Shown: one piece after another, positions 16,242 through 53,324 of the stretch
Position numbering within the stretch: the stretch's first letter is position 1
How the letters are laid out: each line of letters starts with the position of its first letter
From: an uncultured Nitrospira sp.
GTDB lineage: Bacteria; Nitrospirota; Nitrospiria; Nitrospirales; Nitrospiraceae
DNA length: 64,000 nucleotides
Direction of reading: 5' to 3'
Assembly: GCA_902500995.1 (NCBI GenBank)
Contig: CABVSR010000003.1
Span: 1-64,000, forward strand
Position numbers and translations under genes: made by a program
The notes under the pieces: model-generated
What the model saw: only the letters and a program-made list of their open reading frames with translations
Databases searched by the model: none
What the model was told of the DNA's origin: nothing

Positions 16242-16682
16242 ATAGGCACTTTCTCCACGACAAGCGGGAGCCGTCAGTCTCGCCGCGTGAGTCGCCTCCC
16301 AGGTCAGGAGTACTCAACGTCAATGGTGATCAGGGTTGAACGCCGGCAGCGGAGAAAGCAATCCTGATGCCAGTCGTGCACTATGTCGTGACCGCAAGGC
16401 GATAGAAGGATCTGACATCGAACGGCCCAAATGCCGCTTTGCGCGCTAGGAAGTCTGGAGCAATGCTGCAGCGTGGCTCAAAGTCTGTATCGGATGTGAT
16501 ACGCAGCAGTATCTAAACGCATACGCGATGCTTCGTAGCAAGGGACGATAGCATGGCGAGTGTCGGACCCACACGTTGCGTCCCCCATCACGGCTCAAAT
16601 GGAGCTCAGGTCAGATATTTGAGTGAAGCTCCAGCAGAAGCGATGTCGGGAAGGGGATGGTCTTACAACCCCGTGCAGCTGC
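16242..16682. other. Intergenic region, nothing recognised
   Basis: About 440 bases between two minus-strand genes. I found no convincing gene, RNA, repeat or terminator. A promoter for the DUF2235 gene would be expected at the left edge but is not distinct. Confidence 0.45.
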
Positions 16683-25125: not shown

Positions 25126-26127
25126 ATGAAACACAACACAAGACTGCCTAGGCTGCTGGTTCTTGCCGGTCTTGTCTCGCTGACCATGACAAGTCTTGGT
25201 TCCGCGGGCCTATTTGAAAAGGAGGAGACTGTTGGTGAGCGATTCCGGAAAGCCATCGAGAAGATTCGACAGAGCTGCGAAGGCCGGACGTTGGCCAGGG
25301 GAGAAATGTGCGGAGAGGTAGCCAAGCTCAAACCAGCAGACCCCCTGGCGACCGAAGAGGGGCGCTTCGCACACTCGCTCAAAATTCCCAACCCCGTGCC
25401 AAAAGACAGCGGGTATAAACCGGGGATGACCTCGGAACAATATTTCAATCATCTGTGCAAGACAGAAGCAGGGGAGTTCATCTACAAGACCGCGGAAAAT
25501 GTGGAAGGCATTTTTATGATGCGGCCAAGAAAAGCGGCCACAGATTGGGATCTGGAGCATCTATATGCGCTGGAGGATCCGTATGGATACATGGACGCAG
25601 AGGCCCACGATCCAGAATTTCTTTTCGTTGGTCCGGTACGATATCGATTTTTTGAGCAGGCTATAGCTCACGATAAAAAGTCTAGTTGGAGTGGGCAATT
25701 CCTAAATCCGTCATACTTTGTGCCACCTTCCTCGGATGCTCAGTATGAGAGGTATCTAGGATCTGACGGACGAAATCCTCAGTCCATGATCAAACAATAC
25801 GCAACGAAACGGAGCACGAGATATGGGTACACGTGGCGCGGTATTGTCAGGCCTCACGATCGAGAAATGGGAATAGCTGGTGGGGAACTAATAGTTCTCA
25901 ACGTGGACACTCAAGAGATCCTCGGCGTACGACGCGGATACATTCGGACGGGCAACGTTCGTAACAATTCCACGGGTGTATGGTGGCTTACGGGACAAGC
26001 TTGTCCGAACTATGATTACAGGGGACGTCGCAGTAGGGATTTTGATTTTTCTTACTGGTTTATTGGGAAAGTCGTTAAGCCCGTTAACTACGAGATGAGC
26101 TTCAAGGAGTTGATGAATGCCAAGTAA
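25126..26127 (+). CDS. Exported protein of unknown function, coupled to the RTX gene
   Basis: The 333-residue product has a signal peptide (about residues 1-27, ending at G-S-A). A soluble mature region follows that I do not recognise. It contains four widely spaced cysteines that could form disulfides, and segments such as Y-F-N-H-L-C-K-T-E-A-G-E-F-I-Y-K-T and W-D-L-E-H-L-Y-A-L-E-D-P. I see no active-site signature. Its 3' end overlaps the RTX gene by 11 bases and it lies inside the secretion operon, so the two are probably translated together. It could be a partner, periplasmic chaperone or inhibitor of the RTX protein. The start at 25126 follows AAGAAGGA. Confidence 0.8.
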   Translation: MKHNTRLPRLLVLAGLVSLTMTSLGSAGLFEKEETVGERFRKAIEKIRQSCEGRTLARGEMCGEVAKLKPADPLATEEGRFAHSLKIPNPVPKDSGYKPGMTSEQYFNHLCKTEAGEFIYKTAENVEGIFMMRPRKAATDWDLEHLYALEDPYGYMDAEAHDPEFLFVGPVRYRFFEQAIAHDKKSSWSGQFLNPSYFVPPSSDAQYERYLGSDGRNPQSMIKQYATKRSTRYGYTWRGIVRPHDREMGIAGGELIVLNVDTQEILGVRRGYIRTGNVRNNSTGVWWLTGQACPNYDYRGRRSRDFDFSYWFIGKVVKPVNYEMSFKELMNAK

Positions 26128-29100
26128 CACGACGTCATTGTTGAATTTTGCTCTTCAGCAAATGGCTGCGGAATCTTACCTTCAAGGAATCGAGTGGAAT
26201 AGCGCTCTTCAGGTTCGCCCTCGCTTATTACTCGGCAATAACAACGTGCCGGGTGTCGACCCGACAGAGGCAACTCTCGCGGGCAACACGAGATTTACAG
26301 GCGCGTTAGTGGAACGCTTCCTTAAGCAATACGACATACTCGATCATCACGCCAATGACGCCACGGGGTTCTCAGCCACGTTGATGCGCGATAGAAACAC
26401 TGGGGAGTACACGCTATCCTTCCGGAGCACGGAGGCAAAGCACCAAGCTGCCGGCGGTGATTGGGAGCGGGACGGATTATCCGGCGCTGATGGAGAAATC
26501 GCCAAAACGGGGTTTGCGTTGGCGCAATTGGTGAGCATGGAGAAGTATTACCGTTCGCTCAAGGCCGATCCCACCAAACTTCCAGCGGGGGTTGTCCTCA
26601 ATGTCACTGGCTATTCTTTGGGTGGTCATCTGGCGACGGTATTTACCGAACTTCATGCCAATGAAGTTCAAGCTGCCTATACCTTTAACGGGGCAGGGCG
26701 TGGGCGAATCCATGGCGGCACGACCGGACTTCCCGAAGGTGAACGGATCCGACAAATGCTGGAGGTGGCCGAAACGCAGCTTGATGCAATTGATCCCAGC
26801 TGGTTTAACAGTGGGAACATGGTGAATGTCTATACGGATCAGCAGTATCAAGATGTTCGGCAAAGCATCGTTCGAAGTTTCAATACCACCCGTTCGCTTT
26901 TTCCGCCGGGTGAGATCGGTACAGGCGCTGGTTTCGATCGGATCACTCAGCTGGTGGGGCTGGCGACCCATAACGATGGCGTTATGGTAGCCAATTCGGG
27001 CATTCACGGTAGGCCGACCACGATCTTTATCGAAGACCAGCCTAACGTCGAGGGTATCAGCCCGGGCCTTACGCACAGTATCACACTCATTGTGGACTCA
27101 CTGGCATTGAACGAATTGTTCCAAAGCGTTGATGGTAGTTTGCAGAAGAGCACTATCGAGGAGATATTCGCAGCGTCGTCCAGCCAATCTGCTTCAGGTT
27201 TTGTTGGGATGTCGGGCGTTGCAGAAGGAAATTCTCTCGAGCAAGCGCTGGACGCTCTTGGAGGCATCTTCGTTCCGAACTACACACCGACGTTGTTTGG
27301 TCGGGGAGGGCATGATTTTGGTAACCTCACGTTCAGGAACTCCTTTTACGACAATATACAAGCGGTCAAGGCCGCCGTGGGAACGGAGAGCTACCAGATC
27401 GTCAGCGTTGCCACTAGGACCAGCAGTGAGATCTTTGCCGTAGCCCGACAGGATGACGCTTCTGGCCTCGCGTATCGATATGCCCTCCGCGAGCTGAACC
27501 CATTTATCGTAACGGGTGTCGACTATCTCACGGTTCACAATCAAGATCATTCGCTTGATCTCTATGATGGGAGGACCGGGGCTGGTGTGTGGACTCAGAT
27601 GGCACTCAGCGACCGCGCCGAGCTGTTGGTCGAAAAATTTCGATTCAATCAGGCCAATGGATCTCCGGTCAGCCAGACGTTGTTCGTTGATGAAGCCACC
27701 TTCTTCTATAACCTTCGCGGGGCTACGGCGACAGAGACCGTCATCTTCGGGGACGCCGAAGGCCGGGAATATGTTGGGAGGAGGGGCGCCGATCATATAT
27801 ACGGAGGGGCTGGAGAGGACACGATTCGCGGTGCCGAAGGACAAGACTATCTTGAGGGAGGCGACGGCAATGACAACCTCTTTGGCGAAGCTCACAAGGA
27901 CACCCTAGTAGGACTGCAGGGCGAGGATTTCCTGGACGGAGGTCGTGGCGCTGATCGTCTGACTGGAGGTGTCGGGGATGACAGGTACATTGTTGACGAT
28001 CCAGGTGATCAAGTCGTGGAATTTGAGGGCGGAGGAACTGACCAGGTACAGGCCGACATCAGTTTTGCGCTGAGTACAAACGTGGAGCGCCTGATCCTTA
28101 CAGGATCAGGCAACATTGCTGGGACCGGCAATGACCTTGATAACCGCATAATAGGCAATAGCGGCAACAATAGGCTGGCAGGAGGAAGAGGCAACGACCT
28201 CCTCGAAGGCGGCATCGGATTCGATACGTACATCTATGATGCCGGTGACGGACTGGATCGGATTGAAGATAGCGATGCGCAGGGACAGATTGTTTTTGAC
28301 GGCCATTTGTTGCAGGGCGGTATTCGTCGTACAGGAGATGCCACGAATACCTATACGAGTCTCGATGGAAAAACGACCTATGCCATGTCCGGAACCGACC
28401 TGATTGTCAACGGGATACTCATCGTCAACGAGAACTTCCAAAGTGGCCAGATGGGGATTGAGTTGCGAGATGTTTCGGAGATGCCACACGACGCGGGTGC
28501 TCCCACAGGGTTCTTCAAAGACACCTACATAGGCAATGCAGATGGTGTGGAATATTCTCCAGGTTCTGGTGCAACAGAAATTTATGCGAACGGCGGAGAT
28601 GATACGCTCTTTGGAGATCATGTGCCAATTTTGGGCGCCTTCGATGATCTGTTGGATGGTGGCATCGGAAATGACGTATTTTGGGGTGGATTCGGAGAAG
28701 ATTATTTGATCGGTGGTCCTGGAGATGATTACGCATTCATGACTGAGGGGGATATGTTCCTGGGTGGAGACGGCGACGATTATGCAGTGGGTCTTGCCGA
28801 CTATTGGGATTTAAGAGGTCTTCGTATAGATGGCGGGGCGCACTATGCTAACGGTGGGGCAGGTAGCGACACGTTGATGGGGGAGATGGGAGCGGATGTG
28901 CTCGTGGGAGGAGATGGTAACGATGTCCTCCGCGGAGAGAATCGGCCAGCGGGCTGGATCAGTCTTTACTACGACAATTTTGCGTGGAATCGATCACCAC
29001 AGTCGGCCATGATCTCATTTTCCGGAGCCGACGATTACCTGGACGGCGGTGCGGGAAATGACCTGCTCGTCGGCGACGGCGGGGATGACATTCTGCTCGG

Positions 29101-32100
29101 CGGAACTGGGGACGATCGGCTCTATGGTGAATCGGATTTCACTCTGACTCTTCCCGGGGACGATTGGTTGGATGGTGGTGAGGGCAATGACCAGCTGTTC
29201 GGTGGAGCGGGCGTGGATTCCCTTTCGGGAGGGGACGGTGACGACCTCTTGGTCGGAGATTTCTCCGATGATCCCGATTCCGAAGATGTTCTTGATGGCG
29301 GCGCCGGGGCGGATGAGCTCCAGGGGGGCGGGGGTGACGACATTCTCTATGGTGGGAGCGGGATGGACCGGCTGGGCGGGTTCGCTGGAGATGATATCCT
29401 GGATGGCGGGGCTGACAATGATGAGTTGCAAGGCGGCCTCGGAGACGACGCGCTTTGGGGGGGAGTTGGTCACGATCGCATAATCGGCCAGGAAGGGGAT
29501 GACACGCTCTTTGGTGACGAGGGAGATGATGAGCTTGAGGGAAGTGTCGGCAGCGATGTTATGTTTGGCGGGGCTGACAATGACTCACTCTTTGGTCAGG
29601 ACGGACAGGATCTTCTTTCCGGCGAAGCCGGCGACGATTTGTTGAATGGGGGTGCGGGGAACGACGAGCTGGACGGAGGCGATGGCATAGACGATGTGCA
29701 GGGCCGGGAGGGGGATGATGTCTTGGTGGGTGGCACAGGGAACGACTTCTTATACGGCGATGGTAACAATCCTACCGTTCTGAGTCTCGTAGGGGGAGAC
29801 GATACATTAGACGGTGAGGATGGGGACGATCAGTTGTGGGCCGGTGCGGGAGAGGATCAGTTGTTTGGTGGTGAAGGACATGATCAGCTGGTCGGTGACG
29901 TAGGTGACGATCACCTCTACGGTGAAGGCGGTGATGATGTTCTCTTTGGGGACACCTCCCTCTTTATTGCCGAAGCCGGAGCTGATGTGCTGGATGGTGG
30001 TGATGGAAATGATGTGCTTCAGGGCGGGGGCGGCGATGATGATCTTCAGGGTGGAGTCGGGGACGATCGTCTGGTCGGCGGCGGAGGGCTCGATACCTAT
30101 CGGTTCAATTTAGGAGATGGCATCGACTCTATCGAGGACAACGCCGTGCAGGCCAACAGACTCGTTTTTGGAGCCGGAATCACCCTGGACTCGCTGACCT
30201 TGGATGTGGCACCTGCTGACACCCTGGTGCTGCGCGTGGGCAATGGTGGAGATTCGATTCAGATCACCGGGTTTGGATTAAACGGTCCCGCCGATTTCCA
30301 TACCATCCGTCAATTTGAATTTCATGATGGGACGGTATTGACGGATGGCGAATTGTTTGCCCGCGGATTTCAGTTATCCTCCCCAGCAAATGGCGGATCG
30401 CTGCAAGGAACGAGCTTTGCCGATCATATGCAAGGCAGCCAAGTCGGGGATTGGCTGCATGGGCGTGGGGGCAACGATGTGTTGCTGAGTGGATTGGGCG
30501 ATGATGTCCTAGAAGGTGAAGAAGGTGACGATGAGTTAGATGGTGGCGCTGGAGACGACCGACTGTATGGAAACGAGGGGCACAACCTGTTGCGCGGTGG
30601 TGAGGGGAACGACATTCTAGATGCGGCGGGTCTTGGAGATCAGCTCTCCGGTGGTGCGGGGGATGATGCATACCATCTCCGGTCAATAGGAGGTCATGTC
30701 ATCACCGAGGAAACGAATGCGGGCCAGGACACGGTTTACCTGACGTCGAATGAGTCGCTCACCTTTCAGGCTCCGATCAACGTCGAAAACGTGCGGATTG
30801 AGGATGATGTGCCCCTTGATCCGACGATTCAGGTGAATTTGGTTGGCAATGCTCTAGACAATGAACTGTCTGGCTCTCACCGGCTCGACGGACAAGCGGG
30901 TAACGACACGCTAATAGGGACCGGCGACAATACGTTTGTGTTCGGACCTGGATACGGCCAGGACGTGGTGCGGATGGGGATGCAAATGTATGCCCGTTCG
31001 GGCCTGGATCAAGTGCAATTTCTTGCAGGCGTGACACCGGCCAGTCTGAGTTTCGAAGGGCAGGCGAACGATCTAGTCGTGAAGGTGACTGGAACTGCCG
31101 ACGAGTTGCGCCTGAAGTCCTATTTCGAATCTCCTGCAAACAAGGTTGATCAGTTCATCTTTTCCGATGGGACCATCTGGACTTCTGAAGAGATCGATGC
31201 CCGCGTACGCACCCGCATCGGCATCGAGGCCGACGAATCATTTTACGGCTCGACTGGCGACGATACGATTCGAGGCATGGGAGGAAATGATCAAATCAGA
31301 GCCGACGTCGGAAATGATGTGCTTGACGGAGGCACCGGGAACGATTTCTTAGAAGGATTTAGTGGAAATGATGTCTATGTGTTCGGTCGTGGTTATGGGC
31401 ACGATTCGATTGACGAGCAAGGCGACAGCGCTGATATAGATATACTCCAACTCATCGATGGAATTACGCCGGGCGATATCACCCTACAGGCAACGCCTGA
31501 TTTTGGAACTACTGCTCTTCTCACCATCAAGAATACTGCAGACCAAGTCGCCCTTGGAGGATTTTTCTTCTATGAAGGGGCGCGCGTTGATCAAATCCAA
31601 TTCAGCGATGGAACGATATGGGACTACAGCACCATGCTAGCCCGCGTGGAAGGCGTCAATCTTGTCGGCACCGAAGATACGGACTATTACTACGGAAATG
31701 TGACGAACGATGTGCTGTTTGGCTTGGGCGGGGACGACACTCTCTCAGGTGGCGCAGGAAATGACACCCTGGACGGAGGCAGTGGCGCGGATTACATGAC
31801 GGGTGGAACCGGAAATGATGTGTATGTCGTCGACGATATTGACGACATGGTGACGGAGCAAGGCGGACAGGGTACGGATACGGTACAGAGCAGTCGGAGT
31901 TACCTACTGGGTGCGAACCTGGAGAATCTCACTCTTACCGGAAGCGCCGCCATCAATGGTACCGGCAACTCGCTTAATAATACCCTAGTTGGAAATAGTG
32001 CGATGAATCTGCTGGCCGGTGGGGCGGGGAATGACACCTATATAGTCGGCTTCGGCGACACCGTTGTGGAGGCGGCCAGTGCCGGGGCCGACACTGTAAA

Positions 32101-33337
32101 GTCTGATATCAGCTGGACGTTGGGCGCGAATGTCGAACATCTTGTCTTGACGGGCGTTGCCGCTGTTAACGGGACCGGTAATAATCTTGCAAATACCATC
32201 TCCGGTAACAGCGCCGGAAATATCCTTAGCGGAGAATCTGGGGCGGATACGCTGATCGGGGCGCAGGGGGATGATCTGTATATTGTGGACAATGTCGGCG
32301 ACAGAGTCACGGAATTAACCGGTGAAGGGCTAGATACGATTCAGAGTTCCGTGACGTATGCCTTGGGCGCCAATGTAGAGAATCTTACCCTGAACGGTAC
32401 GGCCGCGATCAACGGGACCGGAAATGGATTGGACAACGTGCTGATTGGAAATAGCGCTGCGAACCGGCTGACCGGAGGGGCGGGACACGATACGTATGTC
32501 GTGGGTGCAGGCGATACCATCGTCGAGGGCGCAAATGCCGGGATCGATACCGTTCAGAGTTCTGTGACTCATACTCTCGCAGCGAATGTCGAAAATCTCA
32601 CTCTCCTAGGCACAGGAGCTATTAACGGTACAGGGAATGGGCTCAACAATATTCTTGTCGGCAATAATGCCGTGAACACACTGGCCGGCGGTGCCGGAGA
32701 TGATACCTATGTGGTCGGCGCGGGCGACACGGTCGTCGAAGCAGCGAACGCCGGCATTGATACAGTGCAAAGTTCGGCGACCTGGACATTGGGAGCGAAC
32801 GTCGAAAATCTCAGTCTTTCCGGGGTAGCCGCCATCAATGGAGCGGGCAACACGTTGGCCAACGTTGTAACTGGGAACGCCGGAAATAACATCCTAACTG
32901 GTGGCGATGGCAACGATACACTGTCTGGCGGTAAAGGGAACGATGCGCTTAATGGCGGGACGGGCAGTGACGTGTTTCAGCTCACTCGTGGAGATGGCCA
33001 GGACACGATTATCGATGCCAGTGGGACCGGTGATCGATTGAGCTATGCGACGGGAATTAATCCGCTGGATCTCATTTTAAGTCAGAGTGCCAATGATCTG
33101 CGCATTGCGGTATATGGCTCGACGGATCAAGTGACCATAGCCAACTGGTATGCAGGCGCAGCCAACCAGATTGAAACGGTTCAAGCCGGTAATGGGCAAC
33201 AATTGATGAACACTCAGGTGAATCAACTCATTCAGGCTATGGCGGGATTTACCCAGCAGACCGGACTAAGTTGGGATCAGGCGATTGCCCAGCGGCCCCA
33301 GGACGTCCAACAAGTTCTTGCCGCGAACTGGCACTAA
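26117..33337 (+). CDS. Giant RTX protein with N-terminal lipase-like domain
   Basis: The 2406-residue protein is the likely type I secretion substrate. Residues 1-330 look like a lipase-type alpha/beta hydrolase. The nucleophile elbow is G165-Y-S-L-G-G with Ser167, and a possible catalytic His320 lies in G-L-T-H-S-I-T-L. From about residue 555 come many Gly-Gly-x-Gly-x-Asp-x-(L/F) nonapeptides that would bind calcium, interrupted by several haemolysin-related domains (about 1330-1410, 1610-1690, 1755-1840 and 2295-2375). Four to five 71-residue repeats lie at about 1931-2260. There is no Sec signal; secretion signals of this class are C-terminal. AAGGAG precedes the ATG at 26117. Confidence 0.93.
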   Translation: MPSNTTSLLNFALQQMAAESYLQGIEWNSALQVRPRLLLGNNNVPGVDPTEATLAGNTRFTGALVERFLKQYDILDHHANDATGFSATLMRDRNTGEYTLSFRSTEAKHQAAGGDWERDGLSGADGEIAKTGFALAQLVSMEKYYRSLKADPTKLPAGVVLNVTGYSLGGHLATVFTELHANEVQAAYTFNGAGRGRIHGGTTGLPEGERIRQMLEVAETQLDAIDPSWFNSGNMVNVYTDQQYQDVRQSIVRSFNTTRSLFPPGEIGTGAGFDRITQLVGLATHNDGVMVANSGIHGRPTTIFIEDQPNVEGISPGLTHSITLIVDSLALNELFQSVDGSLQKSTIEEIFAASSSQSASGFVGMSGVAEGNSLEQALDALGGIFVPNYTPTLFGRGGHDFGNLTFRNSFYDNIQAVKAAVGTESYQIVSVATRTSSEIFAVARQDDASGLAYRYALRELNPFIVTGVDYLTVHNQDHSLDLYDGRTGAGVWTQMALSDRAELLVEKFRFNQANGSPVSQTLFVDEATFFYNLRGATATETVIFGDAEGREYVGRRGADHIYGGAGEDTIRGAEGQDYLEGGDGNDNLFGEAHKDTLVGLQGEDFLDGGRGADRLTGGVGDDRYIVDDPGDQVVEFEGGGTDQVQADISFALSTNVERLILTGSGNIAGTGNDLDNRIIGNSGNNRLAGGRGNDLLEGGIGFDTYIYDAGDGLDRIEDSDAQGQIVFDGHLLQGGIRRTGDATNTYTSLDGKTTYAMSGTDLIVNGILIVNENFQSGQMGIELRDVSEMPHDAGAPTGFFKDTYIGNADGVEYSPGSGATEIYANGGDDTLFGDHVPILGAFDDLLDGGIGNDVFWGGFGEDYLIGGPGDDYAFMTEGDMFLGGDGDDYAVGLADYWDLRGLRIDGGAHYANGGAGSDTLMGEMGADVLVGGDGNDVLRGENRPAGWISLYYDNFAWNRSPQSAMISFSGADDYLDGGAGNDLLVGDGGDDILLGGTGDDRLYGESDFTLTLPGDDWLDGGEGNDQLFGGAGVDSLSGGDGDDLLVGDFSDDPDSEDVLDGGAGADELQGGGGDDILYGGSGMDRLGGFAGDDILDGGADNDELQGGLGDDALWGGVGHDRIIGQEGDDTLFGDEGDDELEGSVGSDVMFGGADNDSLFGQDGQDLLSGEAGDDLLNGGAGNDELDGGDGIDDVQGREGDDVLVGGTGNDFLYGDGNNPTVLSLVGGDDTLDGEDGDDQLWAGAGEDQLFGGEGHDQLVGDVGDDHLYGEGGDDVLFGDTSLFIAEAGADVLDGGDGNDVLQGGGGDDDLQGGVGDDRLVGGGGLDTYRFNLGDGIDSIEDNAVQANRLVFGAGITLDSLTLDVAPADTLVLRVGNGGDSIQITGFGLNGPADFHTIRQFEFHDGTVLTDGELFARGFQLSSPANGGSLQGTSFADHMQGSQVGDWLHGRGGNDVLLSGLGDDVLEGEEGDDELDGGAGDDRLYGNEGHNLLRGGEGNDILDAAGLGDQLSGGAGDDAYHLRSIGGHVITEETNAGQDTVYLTSNESLTFQAPINVENVRIEDDVPLDPTIQVNLVGNALDNELSGSHRLDGQAGNDTLIGTGDNTFVFGPGYGQDVVRMGMQMYARSGLDQVQFLAGVTPASLSFEGQANDLVVKVTGTADELRLKSYFESPANKVDQFIFSDGTIWTSEEIDARVRTRIGIEADESFYGSTGDDTIRGMGGNDQIRADVGNDVLDGGTGNDFLEGFSGNDVYVFGRGYGHDSIDEQGDSADIDILQLIDGITPGDITLQATPDFGTTALLTIKNTADQVALGGFFFYEGARVDQIQFSDGTIWDYSTMLARVEGVNLVGTEDTDYYYGNVTNDVLFGLGGDDTLSGGAGNDTLDGGSGADYMTGGTGNDVYVVDDIDDMVTEQGGQGTDTVQSSRSYLLGANLENLTLTGSAAINGTGNSLNNTLVGNSAMNLLAGGAGNDTYIVGFGDTVVEAASAGADTVKSDISWTLGANVEHLVLTGVAAVNGTGNNLANTISGNSAGNILSGESGADTLIGAQGDDLYIVDNVGDRVTELTGEGLDTIQSSVTYALGANVENLTLNGTAAINGTGNGLDNVLIGNSAANRLTGGAGHDTYVVGAGDTIVEGANAGIDTVQSSVTHTLAANVENLTLLGTGAINGTGNGLNNILVGNNAVNTLAGGAGDDTYVVGAGDTVVEAANAGIDTVQSSATWTLGANVENLSLSGVAAINGAGNTLANVVTGNAGNNILTGGDGNDTLSGGKGNDALNGGTGSDVFQLTRGDGQDTIIDASGTGDRLSYATGINPLDLILSQSANDLRIAVYGSTDQVTIANWYAGAANQIETVQAGNGQQLMNTQVNQLIQAMAGFTQQTGLSWDQAIAQRPQDVQQVLAANWH
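27782..30680 (+). repeat. RTX calcium-binding nonapeptide array within the RTX gene
   Basis: Codons for G-G-x-G-x-D-x-hydrophobic-x nonapeptides recur densely through this part of the gene, with linkers of varied length. Such parallel beta-rolls fold only when calcium is bound outside the cell. Confidence 0.9.
31907..32905 (+). repeat. Tandem 213-base (71-residue) repeats within the RTX gene
   Basis: Codons for L-G-A-N-V-E-N-L-x-L start at 31907, 32120, 32363, 32576 and 32789. The spacings are 213, 243, 213 and 213 bases, all in frame. Each unit continues with A-I-N-G-T-G-N and D-T-Y-V-V-G-A-G-D-T-V-V-E. The second unit has a 10-residue insertion carrying an extra D-D-L-Y-I-V motif. Confidence 0.9.
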
Positions 33338-35899: not shown

Positions 35900-37063
35900 T
35901 CACCGTTTCTTGCCGATGCCCTGGCTCATCTGTCCCTGGATCTGGAAACCCTTCTCATCTCTTTCATTCTTGTCGAGAAGGGCTGCCACTGCATCGTCCC
36001 CTTTCAATCCCGCCAGCTTAATCTTGAGACGAAGATTGTTTGCGCTATCAGCGTTGATGAGAGCTTGCTCAATGCTGATTTTCCCTGCCTTGTAGAGTTG
36101 CAAAAGCACGTGGTCAAAGGTCTGGCAACCTTCATCAATGCCTTGCTCCATCGCTTCCTTTAACGTATCGATTTCCGAGCGCTTGATCAGATCTTTGATA
36201 CGGGGGGTATCGAGCATGATTTCCAACGCAGGAACTCGGCGGCCGTCAAGTGAGGGAATGAGGCGTTGAGAGATGATGGCTCGCAAATTGAGCGATAGCT
36301 GCAGATAAATCTGCGCGTGCCGCTCCACCGGGAAGAAATTCATGATGCGTTCGATGGATTGGTTGGCATTGTTGGAGTGCAGGGTTCCGAGGCAGAGGTG
36401 GCCCGTCTCTGCGAAGGTGATGGCTGCTTCCATGGTTTCCGTATCCCGGATTTCGCCGATGAGAATGACATCCGGGGCTTGGCGCAAGGTGTTCTTCAGG
36501 GCATTTCCGAAGGAATGGGTGTCGAAACCGACTTCACGCTGGGTCACGATAGATTTCTTGTGGTGATGGACGAACTCGATCGGGTCTTCCACGCTGATAA
36601 TATGGCCGGCGTGTACGGTGTTCCGGTGATCGATCATGGCCGCCAGCGAGGTAGATTTACCGGAACCGGTCGCGCCGACAACGAGGACCAGCCCTCGTTT
36701 CGTCATGGCGATATCCTTGACGATGGGCGGCAGATCCAGTTGCTCGACCGTCATGATCTCTGCCTTGATGTGTCGAAACACCAACCCCACATTTCCCTTT
36801 TGCCGGAAAATATTCACACGAAACCGCCCCAAGTCTTTGTAATACAAGGCGAGATTCATTTCCATTTTCTCTTCAAACTCGCCCCGCTGCTGGCCGCGCA
36901 TGAGCGCCAGCGCCAATGACTCCAACTGTTCATTCGTAAACGGCGGCGCATCCGTACGATGGGTCGAGCCATGAATCCGATAAATGGGCGGGGCATCGAC
37001 GGTGAGATAGAGGTCGGACGATTCCTGTTTGACCATCACTTCGAGGAGTGTGCGAACATCCAT
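35900..37063 (-). CDS. pilU: Type IV pilus retraction ATPase, PilU-type
   Basis: The 387-residue hexameric ATPase has Walker A G-A-T-G-S-G-K136-S-T, Walker B I-L-I-G-E-I-R-D and the His-box segment A-E-T-G-H-L-C-L-G-T-L-H. Residues D-T-E-T-M-E-A-A-I-T-F and N-A-N-Q-S-I-E-R-I-M-N-F-F-P identify it as PilU rather than PilT. PilU assists PilT in powering pilus disassembly at the inner membrane. The tail (about residues 345-387) is charged and variable. It lies 50 bases downstream of pilT in the same direction. Confidence 0.93.
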   Translation of the reverse strand: MDVRTLLEVMVKQESSDLYLTVDAPPIYRIHGSTHRTDAPPFTNEQLESLALALMRGQQRGEFEEKMEMNLALYYKDLGRFRVNIFRQKGNVGLVFRHIKAEIMTVEQLDLPPIVKDIAMTKRGLVLVVGATGSGKSTSLAAMIDHRNTVHAGHIISVEDPIEFVHHHKKSIVTQREVGFDTHSFGNALKNTLRQAPDVILIGEIRDTETMEAAITFAETGHLCLGTLHSNNANQSIERIMNFFPVERHAQIYLQLSLNLRAIISQRLIPSLDGRRVPALEIMLDTPRIKDLIKRSEIDTLKEAMEQGIDEGCQTFDHVLLQLYKAGKISIEQALINADSANNLRLKIKLAGLKGDDAVAALLDKNERDEKGFQIQGQMSQGIGKKR

Positions 37064-37113: not shown

Positions 37114-38169
37114 TTATGCCGCGCCTGCCGCGTTGAAGAGGTTCGGATTCATACTGCGCGACTGCGCTTCGGCTTTGGTCACCATGCCGCGTGTGGCGAG
37201 ATCGACCAGGGCCATGTCCATGGTCTGCATGCCGTCCTTCTGGCTTGCTTGCATGATGCCGGGAATTTGATGAAGTTTGCCCTCGCGGATGAGGTTGCGC
37301 ACGGCTGTGGTGCCGACCATGATTTCCACCGCCGCAATCCGGCCGCCGCTTTTCTTTTTGAGCAGCGTTTGGGTCAGCACCGCTTCCAACGTTTCCGACA
37401 GTTGCGCGCGGACCTGCGCTTGCTGGTTCGGAGGGAACGCGTCGATGATGCGATCGATGGTTTTTGGAGCGCTGGATGTGTGGAGTGTCGCAAAGACCAA
37501 GTGTCCAGTTTCAGCCGCGGTCAGGGCCAGCTGAATCGTATCCAAATCGCGCATTTCGCCGACGAGAATAATGTCAGGATCTTCGCGCAGTGCGGCACGG
37601 AGCGCATTGGCAAAGGACAGGGTGTGCACGCCGAGTTCGCGTTGGTTAACCAGGCACTTTTTCGATTTGTGAACAAACTCCACCGGGTCTTCAATCGTCA
37701 GGATGTGGCCTTCGAAGGTATTGTTCAAGTAGTCGATCATGCCGGCGAGCGTGGTGGACTTTCCGGATCCGGTTGGGCCGGTGACGAGAATCAAACCTTT
37801 CTCGCGGTCACAGAGTTGGCGGAGAATGGGTGGCATGCCGAGCTTTTCGAGGGGGAGGATCTCGGTTGGAATAGTCCGGAACACCGCGCCTAAACCGCGG
37901 CCCTGGACAAAGACGTTCACGCGAAATCGGGCGATGTCGCCGAGGTCGAAGGAGAAGTCGCATTCCCGATGTTCTTCGAAATTCTTGCGCTGCGCATCGC
38001 TCATCATGTCGTAGATGAGGGCGTGCGTTTCGTCCTGAGTCAGGGGTGGATGGTCCAGTTTTTTAAGATCGCCATGCAAGCGAATCATCGGTGGTTCGCC
38101 GGCGCTGATGTGACAGTCTGAGGCCCCTTGCTGGACACCAAAGGTCAACAGTTTCGAAATGTCAATCAT
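37114..38169 (-). CDS. pilT: Type IV pilus retraction ATPase PilT
   Basis: A 351-residue ATPase with Walker A G-P-T-G-S-G-K137-S-T-T, Walker B I-L-V-G-E-M-R-D and A-E-T-G-H-L-V-F-A-T-L-H. The characteristic PilT motif (A-I-R-N-L-I-R-E-G-K) appears as A-V-R-N-L-I-R-E-G-K-L-H-Q-I. The protein drives pilus retraction and twitching motility and would act on the pilins encoded at 49793-51109. ACGGAG precedes the ATG at 38169. The spacing to pilU supports an operon. Confidence 0.95.
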   Translation of the reverse strand: MIDISKLLTFGVQQGASDCHISAGEPPMIRLHGDLKKLDHPPLTQDETHALIYDMMSDAQRKNFEEHRECDFSFDLGDIARFRVNVFVQGRGLGAVFRTIPTEILPLEKLGMPPILRQLCDREKGLILVTGPTGSGKSTTLAGMIDYLNNTFEGHILTIEDPVEFVHKSKKCLVNQRELGVHTLSFANALRAALREDPDIILVGEMRDLDTIQLALTAAETGHLVFATLHTSSAPKTIDRIIDAFPPNQQAQVRAQLSETLEAVLTQTLLKKKSGGRIAAVEIMVGTTAVRNLIREGKLHQIPGIMQASQKDGMQTMDMALVDLATRGMVTKAEAQSRSMNPNLFNAAGAA

Positions 38170-49411: not shown

Positions 49412-49792
49412 ATTCCCTTTCCCTTTACAGAGTGTTCGTGCCGCGCTCACGGTTGCGCATTCGGCGCGAAGCGCAATCGGTTCATCACTCAACTCCCTGA
49501 CCTCCTCCTGGCGATCCCGCCATGTTCTCTGCATCAAAACTCAGGGCTTTGCCTGTTCGATTCAGTCAATTTTTGGCACTTTACCGGGGCCGGTCATCTT
49601 TCCTGCTTCGGTGATGAGTGCCGGGATTTTCGAGCCAAGCAAAAATATCTCATGTTGTCGGTGTGTTACGAGGAGGGGCCTGATGGATTCTGCCGTGGCA
49701 TGGGGCCTGCTTATTGGCGGGCTGTCCATGCGGGATAGACGGTTGGCAAGCAGGGGGAGAATGAGTATCCCGTGCAGACGTCATCGAGCTGA
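49412..49792. other. Intergenic region carrying the first pilin promoter
   Basis: A 381-base region that contains a sigma-54-type promoter (see separate entry). The remainder shows no gene or terminator; small hairpins lack T-tracts. Confidence 0.5.
49696..49711 (+). promoter_or_regulatory. Sigma-54 (-24/-12) promoter-like element of the first pilin
   Basis: TGGCAT-N5-CTGCT, with GG at 49697-49698 and GC at 49709-49710 exactly ten bases apart, matches the RpoN consensus closely. A transcript would begin near 49722, about 70 bases before the pilin start. Pilin genes are classic targets of RpoN with the activator PilR. Confidence 0.7.
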
Positions 49793-50320
49793 ATGGTGAT
49801 GGACTCAAAACAAGCAGGTTTCACACTCATCGAACTCATGGTCGTGGTCGCGATTGTGGGCATACTGGCCGCATTCGCGATACCGAACTTTCTCCGTTAC
49901 CGGGCGCAGGCCATGCAGGCTGAGGCCAGGACCAATCTGGCGGGAGTGTTCGTCGCTGAAATGTCGTTCTTCACTGAACGGAAAGAATTTGGAAACTTCA
50001 CCGACATTGGATTCGCCATCGCTGGGCCAGGAACGAATCGCTATACCTATCGCACGGGACTCAGCCTGGGTGCTGGGCTGGGACCAAACGGGGGGAACCT
50101 CTGCGGGGCTGCCGGCAGTTGCGACACGATTCAGACGGAAATACCGGCGGCGGGCCCGATTAGTTTTACCGGCAGCGCTGGTATCGCCACGACGTCCTCG
50201 GCAGGATTTACCGCCACCGCTGCGGCCGATCTCGATGGGGATTCCACGCATGACGGCTGGTACGTCAACGATTCGAAGCAGGGGCTGACTGTCGCAGACC
50301 CGAATGATGTGTCGAGTTAG
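49793..50320 (+). CDS. Type IV pilin-like protein (first of tandem pair)
   Basis: The 175-residue product is a type IV prepilin. A 9-residue leader ends in Gly9 and the prepilin peptidase would cut before F10 (F-T-L-I-E-L-M-V-V-V-A-I-V-G-I-L). E14 is the conserved +5 glutamate. The hydrophobic N-terminal helix is followed by a globular domain with a Cys pair near C-G-A-A-G-S-C. The start could also be the ATG at 49799. The protein is probably a major or minor pilin or a pseudopilin. The next gene encodes a close paralogue. Confidence 0.9.
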   Translation: MVMDSKQAGFTLIELMVVVAIVGILAAFAIPNFLRYRAQAMQAEARTNLAGVFVAEMSFFTERKEFGNFTDIGFAIAGPGTNRYTYRTGLSLGAGLGPNGGNLCGAAGSCDTIQTEIPAAGPISFTGSAGIATTSSAGFTATAAADLDGDSTHDGWYVNDSKQGLTVADPNDVSS

Positions 50321-50459
50321 ATACCGGTGCCAAAACTTGTCACCCGATGACGGAAAAAGGAATGGGATTCAGGTGATCGATGAAAACGCCCGGATCAATC
50401 GCAAGGCTAACCGATTGGAAAATAGACAGAATGATACGCAAGTCAAGGAAGGAGGTGTT

Positions 50460-50475
50460 GGGCATAGAATCTGCT
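50460..50475 (+). promoter_or_regulatory. Sigma-54 (-24/-12) promoter-like element of the second pilin
   Basis: GGGCAT-N5-CTGCT, with GG at 50461-50462 and GC at 50473-50474 ten bases apart, repeats the spacing and the CTGCT half of the element before the first pilin. A start near 50486 would leave a leader of about 90 bases. Confidence 0.6.
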
Positions 50476-50575
50476 ATTCCCAAGATCTGTCGGGCGTGAA
50501 CAGGCAGTGTTGAATGAAGAGAGAGGAATCGAGAACGTGTCGGATGAAGTGGCAACAATAGGAAAGGGAGGACGT

Positions 50576-51109
50576 ATGTTGAAGCAAATCAAGGGTCAGA
50601 AGGGTTTTACGTTGATTGAGTTGATGATCGTCGTGGCGATCATCGGTATTTTGGCGGCCATCGCCATTCCGAACTTCTTGCGCTATCAAGCCAAGTCGCG
50701 CCAGTCGGAAGCCAAGACCAACCTGGGCGCGATCTTCGTGGCTGAGACGGCTTATCTCAGCGAAAACTCGCGCTACGGCAGCTTCTCTGAGATCGGATAT
50801 GCCCTGGCCGGAACGACGAATCGATATACCTATCGCAGCCCGCTGGCGGGCGGTGTTGGGGCGTCCGGGGGCACCGTATTCCCGGCTGCCAACTATGACC
50901 TGATTCCGTGCGGTGCTCCTGTGGGTTGTGCGGTGTCGACCGATGCAGCGCCAGCTGTTCCGTCAGCCTCAAATTCGGCGGTGGGTGCGGTCGGTTTCAC
51001 CGCGTCAGCGGTGGCCAGCATCGACAATGACGCCACTATCGATGGTTGGTCAGTCAACGATATCAAGGGTGGCTTGACCCAAGCAGTTCCTGACGACGTG
51101 ACCACTTAA
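50576..51109 (+). CDS. pilA: Type IV pilin (second of tandem pair)
   Basis: A 177-residue prepilin with a 10-residue leader ending Gly10, cut before F11 ([16 protein letters not shown]), and E15 at +5. It is closely related to the first pilin through the N-terminal helix, R-Y-(Q/R)-A-x-x-x-(Q)-x-E-A-(K/R)-T-N-L and the N-R-Y-T-Y-R segment. A Cys pair in C-G-A-P-V-G-C may form the D-loop disulfide. AAGGGAGG precedes the ATG at 50576. With its own promoter and a strong terminator, it is the better candidate for the major pilin. Confidence 0.93.
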
Positions 51110-51134
51110 CGATCGGTCGCAGGGGTTCGTTGGT

Positions 51135-51172
51135 GCGGGGGAGGAACGATGTTCCTCCCCCGTATTCATTTT
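51135..51172 (+). terminator. Rho-independent terminator of the pilin gene
   Basis: An 11-bp stem (51136-51146 with 51152-51162), extendable by one G-T pair, and a 5-base loop. A short T-rich tract follows. It stands 26 bases after the second pilin stop. Confidence 0.85.
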
Positions 51173-51326: not shown

Positions 51327-53324
51327 ATGCGATTTCTCTCTTTGATGCCACCGGCCGTGATCAGCGCGCTCGTGATCTTTTCTCCCCTGCAGGAAGGCGG
51401 GACCACGCATCCGGCCCAAATGATCATCCGTCTTCTGATCCTAGCCTGGTTGGGCCTGGCTCTGATGGAGGCCATTCGAGTGGGCCGTCTCGTCGTCCCG
51501 CGGCTGGTCACCAGGTATGTGCTCTTGACGTTCCTGGGCCTGACGGTCGCCGCCACAATTTTTTCGCCGTATGTGAACCAGAGCCGGCAGTGGTTGTTCA
51601 TGATTACAGGGTACGCCATCCTATTCTATCTCCTGGTCTCCTACGTGAATCGATGGGAATCTGTTCGCACGATAGCGTTGATCGTCGTCGCGATGGGGCT
51701 GGGAGAAGCGGCCTGGGCGATTGTGCAAGGGATGGGCTTGAATGTCGCAAGACCCAGTGGAACTTTTTTTAATCCGAATTTTCTCGCCGGGTACCTCACT
51801 GTCAGCTGGGCAATCTTGTTAAGCATCGCGGTGTATGGCTATCGGAAGCACGCACTATTGTTCCAGTCAGGGCAGTCGGCTGCGTTCTGGTGGGCCGGCG
51901 TGATGTCGCTATCAGGCATCCTCCTCGTCGCGATTGTCTTCACCCAGTCGCGCGGTGGCATGGTCGCATGGTTCGCGGCAACGGTGTGTGTTCTCACAGC
52001 ACGATATGGATGGAAGGTGGCCGGTGCCGGCACCGCCGGGCTGTTGCTCGCCGGAATCCTGTTGCCGACCCCGCTCAAAGAACGAGCCCTGGTTGAACAT
52101 GAACAGAACCCCGTCTCCTACGCCCGCTGGCAAATGTGGCAAGGAGCAGTAACCCAGATGGCCGATCATCCGTTCGGAATCGGGCTGGGCCTCTATCAGT
52201 ATACGTATCCCCAGTACGCGTTTCCGGTTGAAGGGGAGATTACTCGATACGGAAAGGTCGCCCATACGCCACACAATGACTACCTTCAACTCGGTGTGGA
52301 GATGGGAATCGTGGCGTTGCTCGCCGTTCTCGTCGGGATAGGCCTGGTGGTACGGGAGTGTATGCAGGTGCTTCGAGCGAGACTGTTGCGCTGGCAGAGA
52401 AGCCTCATGGTAGGGATCGGAGGCGGAGGAACAGCCCTTCTCGTTCATGCCGCTCTGGACTCCAGCTTGCGTGAATCGGCGCTGGCGATCCTGCTCGTGC
52501 TCTGCGCCGGCCTCGTGGCATCGGCTGCCCGTTTGACCGGTTCCAACAGCGATGCCGTGCATGTCATCCCTATTCGATCGCGCCTACTGTGGGGGACGAG
52601 TGCGGCCTGCCTGGTGTTGTTGCTGGGGGCGGAAGTCGGTCGGATGGGAATTGCGTGGATGACCTTCGATACCGCATCGCGCCGGGCCACGGCGGGCGAA
52701 ACCGATGCGGCGATTGAAGGTCTGAAACAGGCGATCGCGTGGGACCCTGGAAAATCGCTGTACCACCATGGTCTCGGCTCGGTCTACGCGAGAACGTTCG
52801 ACGCGTCTCGCGATAAGGACATGTTTCGGCTTGCGCATGCGGAGTTCAAAGAGGCGATTGAGTTAAATCCGTTGGACAGCCGATTGCTGGGACTTCTGGC
52901 TCAGCTGTATGTATCGGCGGCGAAGCCGACCTCGATGCCAGTCGACCTGGACGATCAACAGAAATTTTGGTTGCGGGCGGCATTGCGCGTGTATGAACGG
53001 GCTGTCCGGCTCGCGCCATTCTCCGCTCCCTATCAGTATGAACAGGCGCGACTCCACTGGCTGCTTGGCGAGCGAGCCGCGGCCGAACAGCGTGCGAAGG
53101 AAGCCGAACGCCTGGAGCCGAATTTTCTCCCTGCGCGGGCTTTGCTGGCGCAATTGTGGATCGATGCAAACCGCCTCGATGATGCCAAGCGGGAGCTGCA
53201 TGAAATTCAATCGCGGCAGGCCAGGTATGAGCAGTGGAATAAAACCAGTCTGGATCGAGCCTTCTTACATATCGATGTGGCGCCCTTGCGGGCAGCGGTT
53301 GAAGGAAAGGGCATTGCCGGGTGA
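51327..53324 (+). CDS. O-antigen ligase/polymerase-like membrane protein with C-terminal TPRs
   Basis: The 665-residue protein has about ten to twelve N-terminal membrane helices of the WaaL/Wzy type. The Wzy_C signature F-T-Q-S-R-G-G lies in a central loop, and H-T-P-H-N-D-Y-L-Q-L-G-V-E-M-G in the following one. A C-terminal TPR domain (about residues 460-665) has A-I-E-G-L-K-Q-A-I-A-W-D-P and similar units. Such ligase-TPR fusions attach glycans to lipid or protein acceptors, and pilin glycosylation is a possible role because the pilin genes are next to it. That is inference. I chose the ATG at 51327. The downstream gene overlaps its stop. Confidence 0.8.
   Translation: MRFLSLMPPAVISALVIFSPLQEGGTTHPAQMIIRLLILAWLGLALMEAIRVGRLVVPRLVTRYVLLTFLGLTVAATIFSPYVNQSRQWLFMITGYAILFYLLVSYVNRWESVRTIALIVVAMGLGEAAWAIVQGMGLNVARPSGTFFNPNFLAGYLTVSWAILLSIAVYGYRKHALLFQSGQSAAFWWAGVMSLSGILLVAIVFTQSRGGMVAWFAATVCVLTARYGWKVAGAGTAGLLLAGILLPTPLKERALVEHEQNPVSYARWQMWQGAVTQMADHPFGIGLGLYQYTYPQYAFPVEGEITRYGKVAHTPHNDYLQLGVEMGIVALLAVLVGIGLVVRECMQVLRARLLRWQRSLMVGIGGGGTALLVHAALDSSLRESALAILLVLCAGLVASAARLTGSNSDAVHVIPIRSRLLWGTSAACLVLLLGAEVGRMGIAWMTFDTASRRATAGETDAAIEGLKQAIAWDPGKSLYHHGLGSVYARTFDASRDKDMFRLAHAEFKEAIELNPLDSRLLGLLAQLYVSAAKPTSMPVDLDDQQKFWLRAALRVYERAVRLAPFSAPYQYEQARLHWLLGERAAAEQRAKEAERLEPNFLPARALLAQLWIDANRLDDAKRELHEIQSRQARYEQWNKTSLDRAFLHIDVAPLRAAVEGKGIAG

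Follow-up and report, generated by a model that had tools for sequence, protein, structure and literature searches.

Why does a Nitrospira genome keep two type IV pilin genes in tandem, each preceded by what looks like a sigma-54 promoter of its own, and are the two pilins made together or in exchange for one another? Type IV pili are hair-like fibers on the cell surface. The arrangement lies in a 64,000-nucleotide stretch of DNA from an uncultured Nitrospira sp. (contig CABVSR010000003.1, positions 1 to 64,000), which we analyzed as a whole and refer to as the window. An earlier note on this DNA had proposed RpoN and PilR as the machinery behind the two genes and had read the duplicated promoters as a sign of separate or switched expression. 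Control of pilA by PilS-PilR and sigma-54 has been described in Pseudomonas aeruginosa (PMC6058289), Kingella kingae (PMC9592894), and Geobacter sulfurreducens (PMC2725144). For Nitrospira, a nitrifier group, the literature searched yielded no work on how pilins are regulated.

Results

A tandem pilin pair and its history

Both genes (Table 1) encode pilins with a class III leader and the GFTLIEL N-methyl motif, and both are matched by PF07963 and TIGR02532. The nearest solved structure is, for each of them, the PilA chain 8tj2 (E 2.5e-26 for pilin 2), and the best sequence relative of both is the Myxococcus-type PilA (NCBIfam model NF041775). However, the two Nitrospira pilins are shorter proteins than Myxococcus-type PilA, and they score 100 and 114 bits against this model, far under its curated equivalog cut-off of 400. 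AlphaFold models of the two pilins, with a mean pLDDT of 38 and 41, were too poor for interpretation.

When relatives were searched with pilin 2, nearly all genomes of the genus yielded the tandem pair; a scan of genome contigs with generic pilin N-terminus patterns was swamped by unrelated pilins, and nothing was gained from it. In the tree, pilin 1 forms a single clade in the genus (support 100/99), as does pilin 2 (support 93/89), and the tandem pilins of a second family, f2, fall nearly all in a group of their own. The two pilins keep to separate clades with no gene exchange, and we see no homogenisation between them. The pair appears to stem from an ancient duplication that took place no later than the base of the genus. 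In one draft genome (G012, L106 at about 1577), a frameshift splits pilin 1, which could be a sequencing error.

The gene neighborhood is shared as well, with a TPR protein upstream of the pilins and a Wzy_C/TPR ligase downstream, both through the genus and in f2. In the window, the latter (51327-53324) is an O-antigen-ligase-like Wzy_C protein with C-terminal TPRs, and it is a candidate pilin glycosyltransferase of the PglL/TfpO-like kind. The window also holds two neighboring PilT-like retraction ATPases (T2SSE; 35900-37063 and 37114-38169, minus strand) and a single open frame of 2406 aa (26117-33337, plus strand).

Table 1. Features of the tandem pilin locus and one further open reading frame in the 64-kb window
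Feature	Position	Strand	Description
UAS1, conserved upstream block	49553..49582	-	CTGTTCGATTCAGTCAATTTTTGGCACTTT (plus-strand letters); near-invariant in 27 congeners
UAS1 palindrome core	49565-49577		GTCAATTTTTGGC; 131 bp before P1
P1, sigma-54 -24/-12 element	49696..49711	+	TGGCATGGGGCCTGCT; predicted transcription start about 49722
Possible 12-codon upstream ORF	49761..49799	+	MSIPCRRHRAEW; own Shine-Dalgarno; stop overlaps pilin 1 start (ATGGTGA)
Pilin 1, type IV prepilin, 175 aa	49793..50320	+	PF07963 2.3e-10; without Shine-Dalgarno
UAS2, conserved upstream block	50329..50357	+	GCCAAAACTTGTCACCCGATGACGGAAAA; palindrome core 50329-50341, 131 bp before P2
P2, sigma-54 -24/-12 element	50460..50475	+	GGGCATAGAATCTGCT; predicted transcription start about 50486
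Pilin 2, type IV prepilin, 177 aa	50576..51109	+	PF07963 2.5e-10; strong conserved Shine-Dalgarno AAAGGGAGG
Strong terminator-like hairpin	51132..51166	+	Closes the pilin unit; 16 pairs, then T-rich tail
400-aa ORF	16241-15039	-	Begins MSKRVILCFDGEWDRP; sigma-54-like site 116 bp before

Two sigma-54-type promoters conserved through the genus

The earlier note had described a GG-N10-GC element with a CTGCT -12 half ahead of each pilin gene, and P1 and P2 are found exactly as claimed, both near the sigma-54 consensus used for comparison (TGGCACG-N4-TTGCW, with GG-N10-GC at -24/-12). Its estimate of 70-90 bases between element and pilin start is right for pilin 1, where about 81 bp separate the end of P1 from the ATG at 49793, and slightly short for pilin 2, where about 100 bp separate the end of P2 from the ATG at 50576.

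Since the plain consensus at 3 mismatches was not enriched in the 64-kb window (152 sites found against 160 expected from shuffles), P1 and P2 are not significant when taken from one sequence alone. On a simple weighted sigma-54 score devised for this analysis, which tolerates C or T at two positions and has a maximum of 23, just four sites on both strands of the 64 kb reached 22, P1 and P2 among them. Over the genome, the pattern with the correct sigma-54 spacing gave 25 matches compared to 14 for the reversed pattern, and a wrong-spacing control gave 12 compared to 19 for its reverse. A good sigma-54-like site, TGGCATCAGGATTGCT, also occurs at 16357-16372 on the minus strand, 116 bp ahead of a 400-aa ORF whose product we take to resemble DUF2235 hydrolases.

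What decisively raises these predicted promoters far above chance is their conservation through the genus. P1 is kept in all 27 genus genomes that have pilin 1, reading TGGCA(C/T)(A/G)(A/G)G(C/G)(C/T)CTGCT, and P2 in all 28 that have pilin 2, reading (G/A)GGCA(C/T)(A/G)GAANCTGCT. In oriented upstream alignments, the -24 GG, the -12 GC, and the spacing between them are invariant (27/27 P1 and 28/28 P2 regions), while the intergenic DNA around them has mostly diverged. The earlier description of a tandem pilin pair with a sigma-54 promoter for each gene is thus borne out by N-methyl pilins and by P1 and P2 elements conserved genus-wide.

Conservation at P2 extends beyond the element itself. A purine block, AGGAAGGAGGTG (50447-50459), lies immediately 5' of the -24 in nearly all congeners, not in G004, and it resembles a perfect Shine-Dalgarno sequence with no conserved reading frame after it. 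We considered a translated mini-ORF in the conserved block around P2 (AAGGAGG-TG-TTG...) and dropped it upon inspection, as changes occur at first codon positions. After the -12, the stretch ATTCCCAAGATCTG (50476-50490) surrounds the predicted start of transcription and takes in the early leader, and its conservation is about equal to that of the promoter; a search of Rfam matched no RNA element, including in this stretch.

Matched palindromes upstream of both promoters

Both promoters are preceded by an element absent from the earlier note, the imperfect palindrome GNCAA-N3-TTGNC, which sits in the conserved blocks UAS1 and UAS2. UAS1 lies in reverse orientation relative to UAS2, and the reverse complement of its block resembles the UAS2 block. 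Across 295 kb of DNA from this genome, the palindrome has 10 exact copies, and the only two in the 64-kb window are those of UAS1 and UAS2, each of which starts 131 bp before its -24 element. Through the genus, this spacing is 131-133 bp at P1 and 128-131 bp at P2, with one outlier at 120 bp, one helical turn less. At both promoters, the palindrome thus occupies a phase-conserved position within the 80-200 bp range of a predicted upstream activator site.

Since the motif was derived from UAS1 and UAS2 themselves, their mutual match is partly circular and constitutes moderate evidence. When the two profiles were compared with spacing ignored, 37 of 5000 column permutations were as good, which is moderately significant. 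Independent support for the motif, itself drawn from sequence comparison, comes from two sides. In f2, 7 of 10 pilin promoters have the palindrome core, with no more than one mismatch, 85-106 bp upstream, and its offsets fall into two clusters, -85 to -87 and -105 to -106. Within the genus, 27 of the 29 genomes contain a single match each to a composite UAS2-P2 signature, invariably located at pilin 2, compared to 2 matches in total over the genomes for the reversed-pattern control. The genomes with no match are G017, which is without tandem pilins, and G043, where the core reads CAAATCTTGTC. The presence of matched palindromes at conserved spacing before both promoters makes a shared activator and joint induction of the two genes probable.

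Candidate regulators

The earlier note had called for rpoN and pilR/pilS to be sought elsewhere in the genome, and we found both rpoN (C13:76790, E 1e-56) and a pilC-pilS-pilR operon (C4:2213-6684), the latter located away from the pilins. PilS carries 6TM_PilS (PF25323, 7.5e-17), HisKA, and HATPase domains, and the adjoining gene encodes a PilR with Response_reg, Sigma54_activat, and HTH_8 domains. Since the genome encodes 26 full sigma-54 activators and pilSR does not lie beside the pilins, PilR is the best candidate for the activator, not a proven one.

The distribution of these genes fits RpoN and PilR as candidate machinery. While rpoN is present in 41/41 genomes of the order, PilS is confined among them to the genus and f2, the same two families whose pilins carry the sites, and this restriction suggests that the sites are tied to PilSR and not merely to RpoN. 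The pilins of f2 have sigma-54 sites; families f3 and f4 are without PilS, and none of their pilins that we inspected has a sigma-54 site of comparable score. We count G017 against the explanation favored below, since it keeps PilS and rpoN and no tandem pilins were found in it.

In P. aeruginosa, PilR recognizes TGT-N11-AGA with GTCT elements (PMC6058289). We did not find the hallmark TGT-N11-A(G/C)A upstream of P1 or P2, GTCT elements occur upstream of P2 only, and the palindrome described here differs from the hallmark; if PilR binds at this locus, the sequence that it uses therefore differs. Since the PilR site is species-specific, the absence of the hallmark limits the likeness to P. aeruginosa and not PilR control as such.

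Different ribosome sites for the two pilins

The two genes contrast at their ribosome sites. The Shine-Dalgarno sequence of pilin 2 is invariant and strong (median -11.3 kcal/mol across the genus), whereas that of pilin 1 is almost never above weak (median -2.2 kcal/mol). An upstream ORF like that in Table 1, with about 12 codons, its own ribosome site, and a stop overlapping the pilin 1 start, stands before pilin 1 in 17 of 27 genomes. In four other genomes, about 60 bp are deleted and the -12 element lies 19-21 nt from the pilin 1 start codon, so that use of this promoter would yield an mRNA with almost no leader. Diversity in the upstream ORF is equal across codon positions (0.48, 0.46, and 0.47), which means that no constraint on its peptide is visible, and a role as a translational coupling element is suggestive only. 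Pilin 2 is probably the major pilin subunit, and pilin 1 is probably a minor or specialised one.

Read-through, switching, or a vestige

An alternative is that the two genes form an operon in which P1 is the main promoter, pilin 2 is expressed mostly by read-through, and P2 is merely a booster. We found no terminator-like hairpin between pilin 1 and pilin 2, as this explanation would have it, and the strong one follows pilin 2. Nonetheless, we consider it unlikely that P2 is so subordinate, because UAS2-P2 shows high conservation and occurs without the first unit in the complete congener genome G004 (L105, 1680-2100). There, pilin 1, P1, and UAS1 have been cleanly lost and UAS2-P2-pilin 2 is retained, showing that this unit can stand by itself.

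The same loss, in which pilin 1 went together with its promoter, upholds the part of the earlier suggestion that concerns separate promoters. Its other part, switched expression, would place each promoter under a different activator or signal, so that cells change pilin type. The two promoters are autonomous and differ in their -24/-12 sequences and in their flanks, which could serve such a purpose, P2 has a conserved purine block, AGGAAGGAGG, and a leader of its own that are absent from P1, and the genome offers 26 activators to choose from. However, the same type of palindrome stands at an equal distance before both promoters, and the pilin lineages do not exchange genes, which leaves switching a quite improbable explanation. 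We rejected switching by inversion or recombination, since a search for inverted repeats found none that reaches 14 nt and the two pilins form separate clades; neither an invertible segment nor pilin gene exchange, the marks of phase-variable or recombining pilins, was found. Co-activation with different output levels fits better than switching, and the difference in amount is likelier to be set at translation.

Finally, although the gene duplication is a plausible origin of both units, it is highly improbable that the second promoter is a vestigial leftover of it, since both promoters are invariant across the genus amid diverged DNA and GG-N10-GC is intact even in G004, where the P2 region is much altered.

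Discussion

We favor co-activation of the two pilin genes from matched sigma-54 units, and we consider this mechanism as a whole to be likely. Each gene would lie behind a complete unit in which an enhancer-like palindrome is followed, about 131 bp further on, by a -24/-12 element and then a leader, with RpoN-RNA polymerase waiting in closed form at both promoters. The two units would share one activator, for which PilR, after phosphorylation by PilS, is the likeliest candidate; it would bind both enhancer sites and open both promoters, and it probably drives the two genes together. Transcripts from P1 may also continue into pilin 2, since there is no terminator between the genes. Output would then be differentiated after transcription, with a strong Shine-Dalgarno for pilin 2 and none for pilin 1. 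A more specific version is that the pilin ratio is fixed at translation, by the strong Shine-Dalgarno of pilin 2 on one side and, for pilin 1, by upstream-ORF coupling or, in four genomes, a near-leaderless mRNA; this version, with one activator acting through matched enhancers, is possible, and we hold it only tentatively.

The locus resembles known PilSR-pilA systems in two respects: a -24/-12 promoter with a distal predicted upstream activator site precedes a type IV pilin gene, and the genome encodes a 6-TM PilS kinase, a PilR-type activator, and RpoN. The locus differs from them in having two tandem pilins with a full unit each. Paired pilin paralogues also occur in tandem in Pseudomonas stutzeri, as pilAI/pilAII. 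In Geobacter, pilA follows pilR (PMC2725144), whereas pilSR here adjoins pilC, away from the pilins. Legionella pneumophila likewise has two related pilins paired at one locus, PilA1 and PilA2, of which PilA2 behaves as the major subunit, but the accessible part of that account does not describe matched enhancer-promoter units at equal spacing (PMC13170364). In Nitrospira, the pilin pair is conserved through the whole genus. Paired pilins and PilSR/sigma-54 control of pilins are each already known; what we describe is an unusually clear duplicated form.

Our findings provide a clean genus-wide regulatory signature for Nitrospira pili, consisting of the palindrome, about 131 bp, and GG-N10-GC. 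With this signature, the question of why there are two pilins becomes one that can be tested concretely, as co-regulation versus switching, for which the loss of pilin 1 in G004, the loss of both pilins in G017, and the shift by one helical turn are ready-made controls. If the ratio of the two pilins is indeed fixed at translation, it would mean that the stoichiometry of a mixed pilus is built in.
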